NCBI GenBank assembly: GCA_947472765.1
Contig: CANJCM010000011.1
Coordinates: forward strand, 1 to 64,000
Source of the DNA: Opitutia bacterium
GTDB lineage: Bacteria > Verrucomicrobiota > Verrucomicrobiia > Opitutales > Opitutaceae
DNA length: 64,000 nt
Direction of reading: 5' to 3'
This document shows positions 6,920 through 55,401 of this stretch, one piece after another. The notes beneath the pieces were generated by a model. It was not told the DNA's origin. It did no database searches and worked only from the letters and a program-made list of their open reading frames with translations. The position numbers and the translations under genes are program-made. Positions within the stretch are counted from its first letter, which is position 1, and the number at the start of each line of letters is the position of its first letter.

Positions 6920-6940
6920 TTGTCATCCATTAGATGACAA
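6920..6940. repeat. solo 21-bp palindrome TTGTCATC-N5-GATGACAA
   Basis: TTGTCATCCATTAGATGACAA. Confidence 0.85.
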
Positions 6941-11221: not shown

Positions 11222-12667
11222 ATGCCCGCCTCCGTCCACGCCGCCGCGATCGATTTGGGAGCCACCAGTGGCCGGGTCATCCTCGGCACCTGGGCGCGAA
11301 ACCGCCTCACGTGGCGCGAGGTGCACCGCTTCCCCAATGCGTTCCGCACGCTCGACGGGCACGACTACTGGGACGTCGGCTCCTTGTGGCAGGAAGTGCA
11401 GGCCGGCCTCCGCCTCGCGGTGGCGGCACTCCCCCGCGGAGCGAAGCTGGCATCCGTCGGCGTCGACACCTGGGGCGTCGACTACGCGCTCGTCAACGAT
11501 GCCGGCCGGCTCGTCTTCCCGGTTCACGCCTATCGCGACAGCCGCACGCAGCCGGGTCTGCAGAAGCTGGCCCGCACCCGGGCCGCGCTCGCCCGCCTCT
11601 ACGCCGCCACCGGCGTGCCCAACGTCTTCTACAATTCGTCGCTGCAACTCGCCGAGGTCGTCGCGGCCTGCCCGGCGATCGAGGATTTGGCGACGCGGTG
11701 CCTGTTCCTGCCCGACTACTTCAACTTCCTCCTCTCGGGCCGGATGGCGAACGAACTCTCGATCGCGAGCACCTCGCAACTGCTCGACGTCCATTCGACG
11801 CAATGGTCCCGCGCGGCGCTCGATTACTTTCGAATCCCGGCGCACTGGTTCACCCCGCCGGTGCCGGCGGGTACGCGGCTCGGACGGGTCCGCGGAATTC
11901 CCGCGCTGGCCGGCACGCAGGTCATCGCCGTGCCAGGCCATGACACCGCCTGCGCCTACGATGCCATGCCCGCCGCGCCCGACGGCACCGATCTTTTCCT
12001 GAGTTCCGGCACGTGGTCGCTGGTGGGTTTCGAAAGCGAAACGCCGGTCCTCGGCGCCGAGGCACTCGCGGCGCGGATTTCCAACGAACGCATCGGCGAC
12101 GGCCGTTACCGTCCGCTCACGAACGTCATTGGACTCTGGATGCTCGAGGGGACATTGAAGGACTTCGCCTCGCGCCCGAACAACGACCGCGAGTGGAACG
12201 CGTTGATCACGGCGGCCGCAAAGCGTCCGGCGCCGGCGCGGTTGCTCGACGTCGCGGATCCCGCGTTTGCCAATCCCCCGTCGATGCGCGCCGCCATCGA
12301 TCGCCAGCTCAAGAAATTCCGGGTGACTCCACCGCGCGACCTCGCCGGGTATGTCCGGTTGATCTGCGACTCGCTCGGCCGCGGCCACGCGGAGGCCATG
12401 CGCAACTTCGAGCGGATGACCGGCCGGCGGTTCAAGCGGATCCTGATCGTCGGCGGTGGTTCGAAGAACCGCCTGCTTTGCCAGGCCACGGCGGATGCGG
12501 CCGGCGTGCCGGTGGTGTCCTTCGCCCTCGAGGGCACCGCCGTCGGCAATCTCGCCAGCCAGTTCATCGCTCTGGGCGCCGTGAAGGATCTGACGACCTT
12601 CCGCCGTCACCTCGGCGCCGGTTTGAAGCAGACCGTGTATGCGCCTGACGGATCCAAACCTGTTTAA
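11222..12667 (+). CDS. rhaB: rhamnulokinase
   Basis: FGGY kinase motifs (AIDLGATSGRVILG, VGVDTWGVDYALV, SSGTWSLVGFE, IVGGGSKN). Confidence 0.9.
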   Translation: MPASVHAAAIDLGATSGRVILGTWARNRLTWREVHRFPNAFRTLDGHDYWDVGSLWQEVQAGLRLAVAALPRGAKLASVGVDTWGVDYALVNDAGRLVFPVHAYRDSRTQPGLQKLARTRAALARLYAATGVPNVFYNSSLQLAEVVAACPAIEDLATRCLFLPDYFNFLLSGRMANELSIASTSQLLDVHSTQWSRAALDYFRIPAHWFTPPVPAGTRLGRVRGIPALAGTQVIAVPGHDTACAYDAMPAAPDGTDLFLSSGTWSLVGFESETPVLGAEALAARISNERIGDGRYRPLTNVIGLWMLEGTLKDFASRPNNDREWNALITAAAKRPAPARLLDVADPAFANPPSMRAAIDRQLKKFRVTPPRDLAGYVRLICDSLGRGHAEAMRNFERMTGRRFKRILIVGGGSKNRLLCQATADAAGVPVVSFALEGTAVGNLASQFIALGAVKDLTTFRRHLGAGLKQTVYAPDGSKPV

Positions 12668-12823
12668 CCACTCATTTTCACTCATCGGACACTAATCCAA
12701 TCCAGGCAGAGGGGGTCCAATCCTTGAACCACTAACTTTCACTAACGGGACACTAACTCGATCCAGTCTGAGTGGTTCGAAGTATTCTCCGAGATTAGTG
12801 ACCGATTAGTGCCAATTAGTGGT
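12648..12823. repeat. CAC-box repeat array between convergent rhaB and oligopeptidase
   Basis: Units such as AACCACTCATTTTCACTCATCGGACACTAAT in both orientations. Confidence 0.8.
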
Positions 12824-14642
12824 TCCCCCGTGCCTTGATCGCCGCTTCGAACGCATCGACTGACTCGCCGCAGCCGGCGATGGCCTGCGCCCAGAATGCC
12901 TTCGTGCCGATGTCCCAGCCGAGCGTCGACTTCACCGCGTCCTCACAGGACGCACTGCCGGTCGCGAGCAGGAACTGCTCGTACTTCGGAAGGAACGACG
13001 CCCCCTCGCGCCGGAACTGCGAGAACAGCGCCTGGCTGAGCAGAAACCCAAACGTGTACGGGAAATTGTAGAACGACACTTCCGCGATGAAGAAGTGGAG
13101 CTTCGACGCCCAGAACCAGGGATCGCGCCCGTGCGGTTCCAGCGCCGGCCCGTAAACCTCGGCCTGCGCCTGCGACATCAGTTCGCAGAGGCGCGACACG
13201 CTCACCACGCCCGCCTTACGCTCCTCGTAAAAGCGCTGCTCAAACAGAAAGCGCACCGGAATGTTCAGCAGATACGCCGGCATGTGGTTCGTCTCCATGT
13301 CGAGGAGGAAGGCCCGGCGCGACGGCGTGAGGCCGGGCGCAGACAGCAGCCCGTGCACGAGAATTTTCTCCGCGAAGGTCGAGGCCGTCTCCGCCAGCGT
13401 CATCGGGTAGTCGCGCGCAATCGGCCGCAGCCCGCCGAGCACATGCGAGTGCCACGCATGGCCGGCTTCGTGCGCGAGGGTCACGACGTCGCCCATCGTG
13501 CCGTTGAAGGTCATGTAAATCCGCTCTTCCCGCGTCAGGGGCGAACCGGTGCAGAACGCGCCGGAGCGTTTGTTGGCGCGCTTTTCCCCCTCGAGCCAGC
13601 GGTCCCGCACACTCTGGCGGAAATACTCGCCGAGCCGCGGATAAGCGGCGTCGAAGGCCGACTGCACCATCGCGATGCCCTCGTCCCATGAAATGTCCGC
13701 AATCGGATCCAGCGGCCGCGGCGCCTCGAGGTCGTACCATTCGAGCGCCTGCGTGCCCTGCAGCCGCGCGCCGATCTGCATGATCCGCCGCGGCAGCGCG
13801 TAGTTCTCGCCGATCGCCGCGAACATCGCATCGAGGGTCGGCTTCGCCAGCGCCGCATCGTGCAATGGAGCATCGAGGAAATGTCCGCGACCGCGCCGTG
13901 CGTACAGCGTGTGCCGCGTGCCGGCGAGGGCGTTGATCGCCGCCGCACAGGTGTCACCCGCCGCGACCCAGACCTTGTTGCCCTCCTCGAACGCGACCTT
14001 CCGGATCGCGCGGTCGGGATTCGTCATCAGCGCGCGGCGTTGCGACATGGGGACGCGTTCGCGGCGTCCATCGGGGAACGTCATCTCGAAACTCATCTTG
14101 CCCGTGACCGTGTCGTAGAGCCGGCTCCACGCCTTGAAGCCGTCGACCCCGAGGTCCGACGCCAGCGCCTCCTGCGCCGCATCCATCTGGTAAACCGCCT
14201 CGGCCCGCAGCCGCCGCAACGCGTGGGCGGCACCGGCGGTCTCCGACGCGGCGAGCAATGCCGCGAAGGCCGTCTCGTCCGCCGGGCGGAGCCCACGGAG
14301 GAGCTGTGATTTCAACTTCGATTCCTCGGCCGCGGCGAGCGACAGCGCCGCCTCCTCGGTCTGATAAGCCTCGTTGGCCGAGTCCGCCGCGCTAAGGCAG
14401 CCGAGATACGAATTGAGATGCCCCATCCGAGTCATCAGCCCTTCCCAGGTCGCAAACGCCCGGGCCCACGCCTGCACGCTTTCCGAAGTCGACTGGAGCG
14501 GCGCGAGCGCGCTGGCCGCGGCGAGCGCAGCCTTGAGGTCGGAATTCAGAGCGGTCCGGAACGCGCGATATTCCGGTCCATCGAAGGTGGGAAAATAGGA
14601 CCGGAGGTCCCAGGTCTGCGGCAAAGGGCGATGCGTCGTCAT
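12816..14642 (-). CDS. M3 family oligoendopeptidase (PepF-like)
   Basis: Zinc motif HEAGHAWHSHVL; M3 C-terminal sequence. Confidence 0.9.
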   Translation of the reverse strand: MTTHRPLPQTWDLRSYFPTFDGPEYRAFRTALNSDLKAALAAASALAPLQSTSESVQAWARAFATWEGLMTRMGHLNSYLGCLSAADSANEAYQTEEAALSLAAAEESKLKSQLLRGLRPADETAFAALLAASETAGAAHALRRLRAEAVYQMDAAQEALASDLGVDGFKAWSRLYDTVTGKMSFEMTFPDGRRERVPMSQRRALMTNPDRAIRKVAFEEGNKVWVAAGDTCAAAINALAGTRHTLYARRGRGHFLDAPLHDAALAKPTLDAMFAAIGENYALPRRIMQIGARLQGTQALEWYDLEAPRPLDPIADISWDEGIAMVQSAFDAAYPRLGEYFRQSVRDRWLEGEKRANKRSGAFCTGSPLTREERIYMTFNGTMGDVVTLAHEAGHAWHSHVLGGLRPIARDYPMTLAETASTFAEKILVHGLLSAPGLTPSRRAFLLDMETNHMPAYLLNIPVRFLFEQRFYEERKAGVVSVSRLCELMSQAQAEVYGPALEPHGRDPWFWASKLHFFIAEVSFYNFPYTFGFLLSQALFSQFRREGASFLPKYEQFLLATGSASCEDAVKSTLGWDIGTKAFWAQAIAGCGESVDAFEAAIKARGNH

Positions 14643-24697: not shown

Positions 24698-25010
24698 CGC
24701 GTTAAAGCTCACTGCCGCTGCGCGCCGGTTCAAGCTTCGGGAGCGAAGGCCCAAACCGGGTTGAGCCGGAAGCCAGGAAGAGAGGAATAGGACTCCCAAC
24801 CAGTGAACCACTAACCGGCACTAACGAGACACTAACTCCGAACCACGGATTTGAACCGCTGGTCCGGATTCCGGGATTCCTGGCTTCAGGCTCCATGGCT
24901 TGGATTAGGGCCCATAAGTGAACACGCGTGGCGACCCCGTTTGAAGCACGGCCGACCGCGACGAACTCCGGCTTGCAGCCTCCGCCCGGACTCCACGCAA
25001 TGCGCCTCTC

Positions 25011-25713: not shown

Positions 25714-25734
25714 TTGTCATCTATCAGATGACAA
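25714..25734. repeat. solo 21-bp palindrome TTGTCATC-N5-GATGACAA
   Basis: TTGTCATCTATCAGATGACAA. Confidence 0.9.
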
Positions 25735-25767
25735 CCACGGCAATCCCCGCTGCGGCAGCTGAGCAAC

Positions 25768-25788
25768 TTGTCATCCAATGGATGACAA
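25768..25788. repeat. solo 21-bp palindrome TTGTCATC-N5-GATGACAA
   Basis: TTGTCATCCAATGGATGACAA. Confidence 0.9.
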
Positions 25789-25820
25789 GATCGCCGGGCC
25801 TCCAGCTGCATCTCTTCCGG

Positions 25821-25972
25821 TTGTCATCTGATACTTGGATTCCGAAGTTGGCTTCGTAGCCCGCTGCGTGAGCAGCGGGAGGGCTTGAGGCGAAGCGATC
25901 AAGAAGTCCCTGTCCTCACGGACAGGGCCACGCCAATCCGTTTAACTTCGGAATCCAGGTATTGGATGACAA
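25821..25972. repeat. 152-bp composite element (family I doublet inside about 29-bp terminal inverted repeats), copy 1
   Basis: TTGTCATC..TGGATTCCGAAGTT ... CCCGCTGC-GTGA-GCAGCGGG ... CCCTGTCC-TCAC-GGACAGGG ... AACTTCGGAATCCAGGTATTGGATGACAA. Confidence 0.92.
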
Positions 25973-27988: not shown

Positions 27989-27999
27989 TCTCCAATCCG

Positions 28000-28304
28000 G
28001 TGAACCACTAATTGGCGCTAATCGGACGCTAATCCCGGAGCAGAGGACTAACCACTGATTGGCACTGATTGGACACTAATTTCGGAGGAGGGCTCCGAAC
28101 CACGAAGCAACGTTTGGGTTAGTGTCCCGTTAGTGAAAGTGAGTGGTTCAAGGATTGGATCCTCTCCGCCTGGCTCGGGATTAGCGTCCCATCAGCGAAG
28201 ATTAGCGGTTAAACCTGAATCAGCCCCATCAGCGTTACACCCCGATTCGGGGTGAAACGCCCCGCACAGGAAACTTCACTAATCCGCATTAGTGTCCATT
28301 AGTG
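28000..28304. repeat. CAC-box repeat array upstream of recD2
   Basis: AACCACTAATTGGCGCTAATCGGACGCTAAT-type units in both orientations. Confidence 0.8.
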
Positions 28305-33860: not shown

Positions 33861-34445
33861 ATCCAATCCTTGAACCGCTAATTTTCGCGAATGGGCGCTA
33901 ATCCTGACCCAATCTTTGAACCACTAACTTTCACTAACGGGACACTAACTAGGGCCGGACGGATCCAAACCTGTTTAACCACTAATCTTCACTAATCGGA
34001 CACTAATCCAATCCAGCGGAGGGGTTCGATCCCGGAGAGGTGCGACGCGTCGCTCGCTCAGGAATTAGTGTCCAATCAGTGCCAATGAGTGGTTCACCGC
34101 CTTGGTCGGGAGTTAGTGCACCATTAGTGCCCGTTAGTGGTTTTGATCCGGTCCGGATCGGAAGGGTTGAACCACTCATTTTCACTGATTGGACACTCAT
34201 TCGATCCCGCCGGAGAGGGTCCAATCCTTGAACCACTAACTTCCACTAACGGGACACTAACTCGATCGAGTCAGAGTAGTCCGTGGCCTTCTCCAAAATT
34301 AGTGTCCGATGAGTGCCAATCAGTGGTTCCCCCGCCTTGGTCCGAAGTTAGTGCACCGTTAGTGCCCGTTAGTGGTTTTGATCCGGTCCGGGATTAGTTC
34401 CGATTAGTGGTCCCCCCACCGAAATCAGCCTCAATCAGCGGTCCG
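33861..34445. repeat. about 585-bp CAC-box repeat array between divergent genes
   Basis: Many AACCACTAAYTTTCACTAACGGGACACTAACT units and reverse complements. Confidence 0.88.
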
Positions 34446-34553
34446 CCATTCGTCGCTAACCGCTTGGCGCGGCGGCCGGGCCTGTGCATTGTCCCGGCTC
34501 CCAACGCGACTTCTGCTGTCGCCGGTCCGTCTGTTCCGCCACCGCACTTTGCC

Positions 34554-37550
34554 ATGAAACGATTCCTTCCCGTTCCGCTCCTCGTCCTGGCCGCGTTCGT
34601 TCTTCCTGCCTTCGCCGCCGAGCGGCCCAACGTCGCCGGCTTCGAATTCGTCAAGGAGTCCGGCGGCGTCACGGAGTTCAAGCTCACCGCGAACGACCTC
34701 AACGTCCTGCTCCTCGAGGACCACTCCGCCCCGGTGCTCACGTTCATGGTCACCTACCGCGTCGGCTCGCGCAACGAGGTCACCGGCACCACCGGCGCCA
34801 CGCACATCCTCGAACACCTCATGTTCAAGGGCAGCCAGAATTTCCACCCCGGGATCGGCAAGGGCTTCGACACGATGATGGACCAGGTCGGCGGCATCAA
34901 CAACGCCACCACCTCCCTCGACCGCACCAACTACTACGAGAACCTGCCGAGCAACCACCTCGAACTCGCCGTCGCCATGGAGGCCGACCGCATGCGCCAC
35001 CTGCTCCTGCGTGACGAGGATCGGCAGCCGGAGATGACCGTCGTCCGCAACGAATTCGAACGCGGCGAAAACGATCCCGCCGAGGCGCTCGAGAAGGAGA
35101 TCATGTCCACCGCCTTCGTCGCCCACCCGTACCACCACCCGACGATCGGCTGGCGGAGCGACATCGAGAAGGTGTCGATCGCGAAGCTGAAGGAGTTCTA
35201 CGACACATTCTACTGGCCGAATAACGCGACGATCACAGTCATCGGCGACTTCGCCCCCGCCAACGCGCTTCAGCTCATCCAGAAATATTTCGCCGTCATC
35301 CCCCGTGCGCCGCACCCGATTCCCACGATCTACACGGAGGAGCCCGCCCAGACCGGTCCGCGCCGCGTGGTGGTAAAACGGCCCGGTGAGGTCGGCGTCG
35401 TCCAGATCGCCTACAAGACGCCCCGCGCCCTGCATCCCGATCATGCGCCTCTCGAGGTCCTCTCCGTGCTGCTGAGCGAGGGGAAGTCCAGCCGGCTTTA
35501 CCGCGCGCTGATCGACGCCAACCTCGGCATCAGCGCCGACGCCTGGAAGGGCGCGTTTCACGACGACATGCTCTTCTCGCTGAGCTCGATGCTCGCGCCC
35601 GGCGTCGGTCACGAGCAGGTCGAGAAGACGCTCCTCGCCGAGGTCGAGAAGGTGAAGAAGGACGGCGTCACCCCGACCGAGGTCACGCGGGCCATCAATC
35701 AACTGCTAGCCGGCATCGCGTTTCACCGCGACGGGTCCTTCGCGATCGCGGGACAAATCAACGAGGCCATCGCGGTCGGTGACTGGACGAGCTACACCGG
35801 CTTGCTCGAGAAGTTGAAGGTCGTGACCGCCGCCGACATTCAGCGCGTCGCCCGGCAGTACCTCAACGAGGACCAAAGCACGACGGGTTGGTTCATCCCG
35901 CAGGCGGAGCCCGCCGAGCCCGCCAAAGGCCAGGCTAGAAACGCAAAGATGCGCGAAGCGGGAGATGACTCTCTTGGTAGCCCGCTGCGTGAGCAGCGGG
36001 ACGACGTCAGGCTCAGCAGTGAAGAAGTCCCTGCCCTCACGGGCAGGGCTACCCTGGACGAGGGTCGGGATGCCGAACGCCATGCAACAGCTCTGCCGCT
36101 CGGTGGCAGCACGTCGGCCGTCACCTCCGCAATCGCATCGTACTCCGGCGCCGGTCGCTTCCTGCACTACTACCGGGACCCTCGCGGTCAGGATGACTTC
36201 AACGCGCCGCCGACCCGAGGCGCTCCCGCCGCTCTCGCCGCCGCTCCCATCACCGGCGGCGGCAAGGCCGCCACCGGGGCATTGATCGCTCCGCGCGTCC
36301 GTCGCCGCCAGGTCGCAGGCATCGACGTCCTCACGCTCAAGACCGGAATCAAGGACGTCGTGACCATTCGCGGCGTGCTCGGCGCCGGCGATGTTTTCAA
36401 CCTGCCAGGCAACTCCGCCATCGCCGATCTCACCGCGGGCATGTTGGACCAGGGCACGGTCAAACGTGACAAGTTCGCCGTCGCCGCGGTGCTCGAGGAA
36501 ACCGGTGCCACGCTTCGTTTCGGGACCGGCAGCCACACGCTCAACTTCTCCGGCAAAAGCCTGCGCAAGGACCTGCCGCTCGTCGTCGGATTGCTCGCCG
36601 AACAGTTGCGCACGCCGCGGCTCGATGCGGAGGAGTTCGCGAAGCTGAAGACCCAGCTCATCGGCCGGCACAAGCGCGCGATGGACGACACCGACTTCCG
36701 CGCGGGCCGCGAATTCGAGCGCGCCATTTATCCGGAGGGCCACCCGAACCGCCCGCCCGCGAACGAAAAATATCTGGCCGACGTCGAGGCCGCGACGCTC
36801 GACCAGTTGCGCGCTTTCCACGCCGCCAACTACGGCCCGACCGCCGCCCGGCTCGTGATCGTGGGCGATGTCGACGACGCCGCGATCGACGCGGCCATCG
36901 GCGAGGCCTTCGCCGGCTGGAAGGGCGGGCGCCCGATTCCGCCGGCACCGCGCGCTCCGGCCCTCGCCGCTCCCCGCGTCGAAAAGGTCGCGATGCCGGG
37001 CAAGACGAGTGTGTCGCTCACCATCGGGCAACCGTCCGGTCTGCGTTACACCGATCCCGGCTATCAGGCGCTCAACATGGCGACGTCGGTCCTCGGCAGC
37101 GGTTTCTTCTCGGCCCGGCTGCTCGACATCATTCGCAACCGCGAGGGACTCACCTACGGCATCTTCGCCCAGCTCAGCGGCGACACCTACGCTGACGGCG
37201 GCTGGCAAATCTCCGGCACCTTCGCTCCCGACCTGCTGGAGAAGGGTCTCGCCTCCACCCTGCGCGAACTCAACCGCTTCGCCCGCGAAGGCCTGACCGC
37301 CGCGGAACTCACCACGTTCAAGGTCACCCTCACGGGTTCGTACAAAGTCGCCCTCGCGACGACGGACGGCCTCGCCTCGACGCTGCTCAATACCATTCAG
37401 CGCGGGTACGGTCCGGAGTGGGTTGATGAGTTACCCCGCAAGATCGAAGCGCTGTCGCTCGCCGAGGTGAACGCCGCGATCAAGCAGTACCTGAATCCGG
37501 ACAAGATGGTGACGGTCATGGCCGGCACGTTTCCCGAAGCGGGAAAGTAG
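34554..37550 (+). CDS. M16 family zinc peptidase (two-half fused)
   Basis: Inverse zinc motif GATHILEHLMFKG; second M16 half; signal peptide MKRFLPVPLLVLAAFVLPAFAAE. Confidence 0.9.
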   Translation: MKRFLPVPLLVLAAFVLPAFAAERPNVAGFEFVKESGGVTEFKLTANDLNVLLLEDHSAPVLTFMVTYRVGSRNEVTGTTGATHILEHLMFKGSQNFHPGIGKGFDTMMDQVGGINNATTSLDRTNYYENLPSNHLELAVAMEADRMRHLLLRDEDRQPEMTVVRNEFERGENDPAEALEKEIMSTAFVAHPYHHPTIGWRSDIEKVSIAKLKEFYDTFYWPNNATITVIGDFAPANALQLIQKYFAVIPRAPHPIPTIYTEEPAQTGPRRVVVKRPGEVGVVQIAYKTPRALHPDHAPLEVLSVLLSEGKSSRLYRALIDANLGISADAWKGAFHDDMLFSLSSMLAPGVGHEQVEKTLLAEVEKVKKDGVTPTEVTRAINQLLAGIAFHRDGSFAIAGQINEAIAVGDWTSYTGLLEKLKVVTAADIQRVARQYLNEDQSTTGWFIPQAEPAEPAKGQARNAKMREAGDDSLGSPLREQRDDVRLSSEEVPALTGRATLDEGRDAERHATALPLGGSTSAVTSAIASYSGAGRFLHYYRDPRGQDDFNAPPTRGAPAALAAAPITGGGKAATGALIAPRVRRRQVAGIDVLTLKTGIKDVVTIRGVLGAGDVFNLPGNSAIADLTAGMLDQGTVKRDKFAVAAVLEETGATLRFGTGSHTLNFSGKSLRKDLPLVVGLLAEQLRTPRLDAEEFAKLKTQLIGRHKRAMDDTDFRAGREFERAIYPEGHPNRPPANEKYLADVEAATLDQLRAFHAANYGPTAARLVIVGDVDDAAIDAAIGEAFAGWKGGRPIPPAPRAPALAAPRVEKVAMPGKTSVSLTIGQPSGLRYTDPGYQALNMATSVLGSGFFSARLLDIIRNREGLTYGIFAQLSGDTYADGGWQISGTFAPDLLEKGLASTLRELNRFAREGLTAAELTTFKVTLTGSYKVALATTDGLASTLLNTIQRGYGPEWVDELPRKIEALSLAEVNAAIKQYLNPDKMVTVMAGTFPEAGK
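35976..36053. repeat. family I doublet (78 bp) inside the M16 peptidase coding sequence
   Basis: GGTAGCCCGCTGCGTGAGCAGCGGG ... CCCTGCCCTCACGGGCAGGGCTACC. Confidence 0.92.
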
Positions 37551-38297: not shown

Positions 38298-38372
38298 GTG
38301 GCCCTGCCCGTGAGGGCAGGGACCTCTTTGTGCTCCGCTTAAAGTCGTCCCGCTGCTCACGCAGCGGGCTAC
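38298..38372. repeat. family I doublet without the outer arms
   Basis: GTGGCCCTGCCCGTGAGGGCAGGGAC ... GTCCCGCTGCTCACGCAGCGGGCTAC. Confidence 0.9.
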
Positions 38373-43345: not shown

Positions 43346-43497
43346 TTGTCATCTGTTAAATGGATTCCGAAGTTGATTGGCTCGGCGTGGCCCTGTCCGT
43401 GAGGACAGGGATTTCTCGATCGCTCTGCATGAAGCCGTCCCGCTGCTCACGCAGCGGGCTACGAAGCCGACTTCGGAATTCAGGTGCTAGATGACAA
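43346..43497. repeat. 152-bp composite element, copy 2 (inner doublet reversed)
   Basis: TTGTCATCTGTTAAATGGATTCCGAAGTT ... ACTTCGGAATTCAGGTGCTAGATGACAA. Confidence 0.92.
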
Positions 43498-48065: not shown

Positions 48066-48106
48066 CCGAGCCTCTTCGTCATCTATCAGATGACAAAGAG
48101 GCTCGG
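48066..48106. repeat. extended TTGTCATC-type hairpin with 19-bp arms
   Basis: CCGAGCCTCTTCGTCATCT-atc-AGATGACAAAGAGGCTCGG (one mismatch). Confidence 0.88.
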
Positions 48107-49154: not shown

Positions 49155-49306
49155 TCGTCACGTATTACGTGGATTCCGAAGTTGGCCTGGTAGCCCGCTG
49201 CGTGAGCAGCGGGACGGCATGGAGCGCAGCAATGAAGGAGTCCCTGTCCTCACGGACAGGGCCACGCCAATCCGTTTAACTTCGGAATCCAGGTATAACG
49301 TGACGT
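49155..49306. repeat. 152-bp composite element, copy 4 with alternative terminal tips
   Basis: TCGTCACGTATTACGTGGATTCCGAAGTT ... AACTTCGGAATCCAGGTATAACGTGACGT. Confidence 0.9.
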
Positions 49307-55249: not shown

Positions 55250-55401
55250 TTGTCATCCAATACTTGGATTCCGAAGTTGGCTTCGTAGCCCGCTGCGTGA
55301 GCAGCGGGACGGCTTTAGGCGAAGCGATCACGAAGTCCCTGTCCTCACGGACAGGGCCACGCCAATCCGTTTAACTTCGGAATCCAGGTAATAGATGACA
55401 A
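55250..55401. repeat. 152-bp composite element, copy 3
   Basis: TTGTCATCCAATACTTGGATTCCGAAGTT ... AACTTCGGAATCCAGGTAATAGATGACAA. Confidence 0.92.

Follow-up and report, generated by a model that had tools for sequence, protein, structure and literature searches.

GTAG-type REPs form several families in Opitutus terrae, one of them mostly with GTGG heads, and many of their copies lie within genes (PMC3733652). REP palindromes are also targets of insertion sequences (IS), for which one survey lists the IS3, IS110, IS4, IS256 and IS5 families and not IS1380 (PMC1525189). Within the IS1380 family, IS1247 is described with inverted repeats of 16/13 and a direct repeat of 5 (PMC3281130).

Here we describe a repeat from bases 1-64000 of contig 11 of an Opitutia bacterium genome of 4.97 Mb in 157 contigs; this whole 64,000-nucleotide stretch is referred to as the window. 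We regard it as probably a non-autonomous transposon (MITE) of 126 bp, whose inverted ends (CYTGGATTCCGAAGTT) are 16 bp long and whose interior is a REPIN.

Anatomy of the repeat

The initial annotation had placed four 152-bp copies of a composite, mobile-type element at 25821-25972, 43346-43497, 49155-49306 and 55250-55401. These coordinates and the length hold, and its description of a high-copy element of fixed length is supported. It had also given each copy imperfect terminal inverted repeats of about 29 bp. The arms are real as a string, but they are not the single terminal repeat of a 152-bp element. Each consists of three parts in series (one half of the palindrome at the target, the duplicated target site and a terminal repeat of 16 bp), and they looked 29 bp long because each insertion is flanked by a half-palindrome plus a duplication. 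The longer terminal repeat was overturned by isolated palindromes, since in the window and in sampled stretches of the genome the outer sequence is also found with no element inside it, as a palindrome of 21 bp, TTGTCATC-N5-GATGACAA. The 152-bp unit is made up of 8 (half-palindrome) + 5 (duplication) + 126 (element) + 5 + 8 bp, the element itself measuring 122 bp from TGG to CCA plus the two outermost bases at each end.

All four elements in the window are 126 bp long. Copy 1 lies on the forward strand at 25834-25959 and has the ends CTTGGATTCC and GGAATCCAGG; it is bordered by TGATA (25829-25833) and TATTG (25960-25964), which match at 2/5 positions, and then by the half-palindromes TTGTCATC (25821-25828) and GATGACAA (25965-25972). 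Copy 2 (43359-43484) is on the reverse strand, inverted with respect to copy 1, with duplications TAGCA/TAACA (43354-43358 and 43485-43489, 4/5 match) and half-palindromes at 43346-43353 and 43490-43497. Forward again are copy 3 (49168-49293), between TATTA (49163-49167) and TATAA (49294-49298), and copy 4 (55263-55388), between CAATA (55258-55262) and TAATA (55389-55393). The half-palindromes of copy 3 (49155-49162 and 49299-49306) belong to a second class, GTCACG/CGTGAC; those of copy 4 are at 55250-55257 and 55394-55401. The duplications are imperfect in all four window copies.

Searching the genome for an excess of copies showed a family far above chance. From stretches of the genome 71 copies were extracted, 69 of them exactly 126 bp long; these copy numbers are lower bounds. 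A nucleotide search gave 287 first-look candidates, of which 40 were scored and all were strong. The exact 14-mer TGGATTCCGAAGTT occurs 82 times, with no occurrence in the reversed control; for the 16-mer end, allowing one mismatch, the count is 143. Relatives of the element number at least 13 in G004, a genome of the same genus. Nine copies from relatives were delimited (eight from G004, one from genome G018) and 8/9 are 126 bp; the eight from G004 share the 122-bp core length, and several have exact duplications. An exact-pattern scan of GTDB contigs, possibly not including the present genome, for the element end plus REP gave no match, nor did searches of plasmid and phage collections.

On another contig of the same genome (C72; L096:891-1384), three copies stand in tandem, spaced exactly 184 bp apart and each with flanking palindrome halves, which is probably a local tandem amplification. 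The window also holds another dispersed repeat family, with AACCACTAATTTTCACTAATCGGACACTAATC units in both orientations (12656-12830, 24796-24850, 27990-28178 and 33863-34334).

Insertion at the centre of short palindromes

Uninterrupted target palindromes are present in the window at 6920-6940 (TTGTCATCCATTAGATGACAA), 25714-25734, 25768-25788 and 48076-48096 (one mismatch); the second lies 54 bp before the third, and the third 53 bp before the palindrome split by copy 1. Allowing one mismatch, 52 were counted genome-wide and 0 in the control. As read from the sequences, the element interrupts short palindromes in the middle, and their 5-nt centre is repeated directly on both sides. Of 69 copies, 23 have an exact 5-bp direct duplication, and the mean agreement is 3.65/5, compared with maxima of 9 copies and 2.65/5 over 10,000 shuffles. 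The five bases beside each end form a direct and not an inverted repeat; in a first set of 35 copies, 12 were exact in direct and none in inverted orientation. Duplications are imperfect in two thirds of the copies, and a strict 5-bp rule fails, as at least three copies carry 4-bp repeats. By site, 40 of the 69 belong to the first class (TTGTCATC-N5-GATGACAA) and 15 to the second (GTCACG-N5-CGTGAC, often within CCAAACCTTGCACGTCACG...), and the flanks of the 14 that fit neither are still weakly palindromic (shuffle p = 0.03).

The search for empty sites in relatives yielded two orthologous ones, one in G004 and one in the genome under study. At the region of G004 orthologous to an insertion in our genome (L018), an intact palindrome, TTGTCATCTATTAGATGACAA, is kept, with flanks matching on both sides; once our own flanks are joined, 92/122 aligned bases are identical (score 88 compared with a shuffle maximum of 20). 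Conversely, a G004 locus (L058) reads TTTCA-element-TTTCA where our genome has a single TTTCA (L014; score 89, shuffle maximum 32). Three further candidate pairs (L138/L050, L067/L057 and L065/L039) are too diverged to read. The element has the features of a MITE: it is short and non-coding, with inverted ends, many copies of fixed length, a target-site duplication and empty sites.

At regular spacing, the target palindromes are grouped into small arrays, whose spacers mostly differ. Spacing is about 54 bp in our genome (window 25714-25828) and 26-28 nt in genome G003 (loci L173-L179). The arrays of the same-genus genome G022 (loci L162-L172, L180 and L181) read AGT-GTCACGTNNNACGTGAC-ACT, with spacers alternating between 29 and 38 nt, the longer often with CGAGGGAG. 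Such palindromes are abundant in some members of the genus only, with 22-69 in seven of them and 37 in our genome.

An IS1380-family IS with the same ends

A search with the end sequence led to an intact 1498-bp IS in G022 (L116:1501-2998). Its ends are CCTGGATTCCTAAGTT and CCTGGATCCCGAAGTA, its duplication is TAATA and its target is of the GTCACG/CGTGAC type, written out GTCACG-TAATA-CGTGAC. The 450-aa transposase scores 220 bits with the NCBIfam IS1380 model (cut-off 180) and matches PF13701 (5.5e-39). A second IS, from an Oleiharenicola sp. MAG (L161), encodes a protein 67% identical to it and has the same ends, with the duplication TATTA inside a different palindrome, AAGTAGG..CCTACTT. The ends of our element share 14-15/16 bases with each end of these two IS. 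In G018, a 251-bp element has the same type of end, the duplication TAATA and the same target, with other cargo.

No IS1380 transposase was found in the same genome as the element, either in our genome, where an assembly about 96% complete was searched with PF13701 and the G022 protein, or in G004. Fixed length, ends, target duplication, palindromic target and empty sites can all be read directly from the genomes; trans-mobilisation by an IS1380 transposase is what we infer, the candidate enzyme having been found in relatives only and such mobilisation thus not being tied directly to these hosts. Together with the partly decayed duplications, the failure to find an IS1380 gene in our genome and G004 suggests that most insertions are old, and since no such gene was found in this assembly the present activity of the element is doubtful. 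The G022 IS and the MITE have only their ends in common, which does not establish that the MITE arose from that IS by deletion.

We also considered that a DDE transposase from some other family, with ends alike by convergence, might move the same 126-bp MITE, as the lack of a detected IS1380 gene in our own assembly would allow. We think this unlikely, because the element agrees with the G022 and Oleiharenicola IS in its ends (14-16/16 bases), the length of its duplication, its target palindrome and even the target loop.

Two side observations concern related elements. The 251-bp MITE of G018 (L126:1501-1751) carries the Rfam Acido-Lenti-1 RNA motif (RF01687, 47 bits), suggesting that transposons can carry this motif along as cargo. 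An 85-bp hairpin element in genome G016 (L119:18-102) has ends (CCTAAATTCCGCAGTA/CCTGGATTCCGCAGTT) resembling those of an IS1380 element in genome G014 (L149:1378-2904), a possible second IS-MITE pair.

The REPIN interior and the RAYT genes

Inside copy 1, at 25856-25931 on the forward strand, are REP A (25856-25879, forward; GTAG CCCGCTGC GTGA GCAGCGGG) and REP B (25908-25931, reverse; GTGG CCCTGTCC GTGA GGACAGGG); the corresponding positions in the other window copies are 43387-43462, 49190-49265 and 55285-55360. Two hairpins in inverted orientation, with GTGA/TCAC loops and three compensated stem differences, had been noted here at the outset and are as claimed. The reading of the doublet as a REPIN, two inverted REPs with GTAG/GTGG heads, is likewise borne out. 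Also confirmed are doublets without the MITE ends, both on the forward strand, at 35977-36052 (type B stem CCCTGCCC) and 38298-38372 (B then A). Both hairpins are orthodox REPs with a GTAG or GTGG head and an 8-bp stem. In 464 kb examined, all 37 REPs had the loop GTGA, and 18 had GTGG and 17 GTAG heads. Most occur as inverted doublets with heads outward that pair a type A REP (CCCGCTGC) with a type B REP, whose stem is CCCTGTCC in the MITE and mainly CCCTGCCC in free REPINs. The REP motif occurs 437 times in our genome and 48-114 times each in G004, G012, G015, G016 and G017 (controls 0). Because G012, G015 and G017 gave no match to the MITE end, although the REP motif is abundant there, the REPIN is independent of the MITE ends.

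The stems covary. At four variable positions in 37 distinct REPs, pairing is 91%, compared with 56% after shuffling (maximum 68%). Across 45 MITE copies, nine pairs changed on both sides, a number reached by 0/500 shuffles; the terminal repeat holds one of them and the two hairpins the other eight. Since cells are not independent events, this is support short of proof.

The free REPIN at 35977-36052 is in frame within an M16 (insulinase-type) peptidase ORF (34407-37550), where it stands between the two halves of the ORF and adds about 26 residues. In a second kind of REP dimer, the same two types face each other head-to-head across 9 bp, with a conserved spacer, TTTCAGTC (L049:16217-16273 and L054:14828-14884).

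The initial annotation implied that the whole unit was mobilised by a RAYT (REP-associated tyrosine transposase) and proposed looking for such a gene elsewhere in the genome. Seven RAYT (Y1_Tnp) genes are indeed present, several of them beside other REP families, and the GTAG/GTGG-headed interior is a genuine REPIN. Even so, we consider it very unlikely that a RAYT moves the entire 152-bp unit as a REPIN whose arms have been extended. The boundaries are CYTGG ends with 5-bp direct duplications and lie outside the REP heads, and they match the ends of an IS1380-family IS. Moreover, the element's REP family was absent from the roughly 1.5 kb of flanks examined at the seven RAYT loci, and among relatives it did not directly flank any of 30 RAYT matches; the shortest distance between such a REPIN and a RAYT, in five relatives, is about 1.2 kb.

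Five of the seven RAYT genes adjoin other REP families: GTAG-GGGCGCGC at loci L031 and L032, GGACGGTG..CACCGTCC..CCATGG at L033 (variant stem) and L036, and GTGG-CACGGGTC doublets on both sides at L037.

Genomic setting

By codon-usage gene calls made for this analysis, not a published annotation, 0/69 copies lie inside predicted genes. Orientation relative to neighbouring genes is unbiased (18 -+, 17 +-, 15 ++ and 14 --), and the genes flanking the window copies include those for a HAD hydrolase, a sodium:solute symporter, M20 peptidases, Hsp33-like and SnoaL-like proteins and a sulfatase. That the repeats are not mobile and are structured intergenic regulatory RNAs or DNA sites under selection would fit this placement outside genes and the compensated hairpin pairing, but is highly improbable given the unrelated neighbouring genes, the unbiased orientation, the target duplications, the orthologous empty sites and an Rfam search that had no match in the window or the palindrome arrays.

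Proposed mechanism

We therefore favour an IS1380-type MITE that captured a REPIN and inserts at palindrome centres as the likely explanation. An IS1380-family DDE transposase, like the enzyme of the same-genus IS, would act in trans on the ends, cut the palindrome centre with a 5-bp stagger and join the element there. Capture of the REPIN by an ancestral MITE may predate the divergence of the host species, and the REPIN would since have been amplified as passive cargo. Free REPINs would spread separately, probably via a RAYT, and the IS1380 enzyme may later have been lost or be absent from the assembly.

Target arms vary between species (GTCATC, GTCACG, GTAACG and AAGTAGG), and insertion position and duplication length are constant. 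We tentatively raise the possibility that this IS1380 clade recognises the shape of a palindrome (a hairpin or cruciform with a 5-nt loop) over its sequence, and that it takes an undescribed, genus-wide system of regularly spaced arrays of short palindromes as its landing sites, spreading captured REPINs along with itself. As the target loop would itself become the duplication, shape-based target choice would be directly testable.

Comparison with known systems

If our preferred reading of an IS1380-type MITE carrying a REPIN is correct, one mobile system is nested in another, unrelated one and the two are amplified together: REPINs are normally associated with tyrosine transposases, and this one lies inside a DDE-type MITE. 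IS1380 would then join the families known to pick palindromes as targets. There is also a warning for repeat annotation, in that a half-palindrome plus a duplication mimics a long terminal repeat. In the open-licence literature that we searched, neither palindrome targeting by IS1380 nor a MITE carrying a REPIN is reported.

The interior resembles described REPINs and GTAG-type REPs (PMC3116915; PMC3733652) in its GTAG/GTGG heads, short stem, fixed loop and inverted doublet, and in being intergenic and high-copy with occasional in-frame copies in genes. It differs in that inverted ends of 16 bp enclose the doublet and a 5-bp target duplication is present, so that what moves extends beyond the REPIN and does not stop at the REP heads. 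With the IS1380 family (NCBIfam NF033539; IS1247, PMC3281130) the element shares its ends and duplication length, and also the palindromic targets seen in the G022 and Oleiharenicola members; unlike them, it has no transposase gene and a REPIN interior, and it resides in an assembly with no detected IS1380 gene. Like the bacterial MITEs Correia/NEMIS, RUP, ERIC and TIMEs (PMC3733652; PMC4133298), it is small, high-copy, intergenic and non-coding, with inverted ends and a target duplication, but the transposase family is another, the interior is a REPIN and insertion is at palindrome centres. Finally, insertion into dispersed palindromic repeats is shared with the REP-targeting IS (IS1397, ISKpn1, IS621 and ISRm22; PMC1525189), whereas here it is a MITE that inserts, and it does so into palindromes of another repeat set, one without a name.
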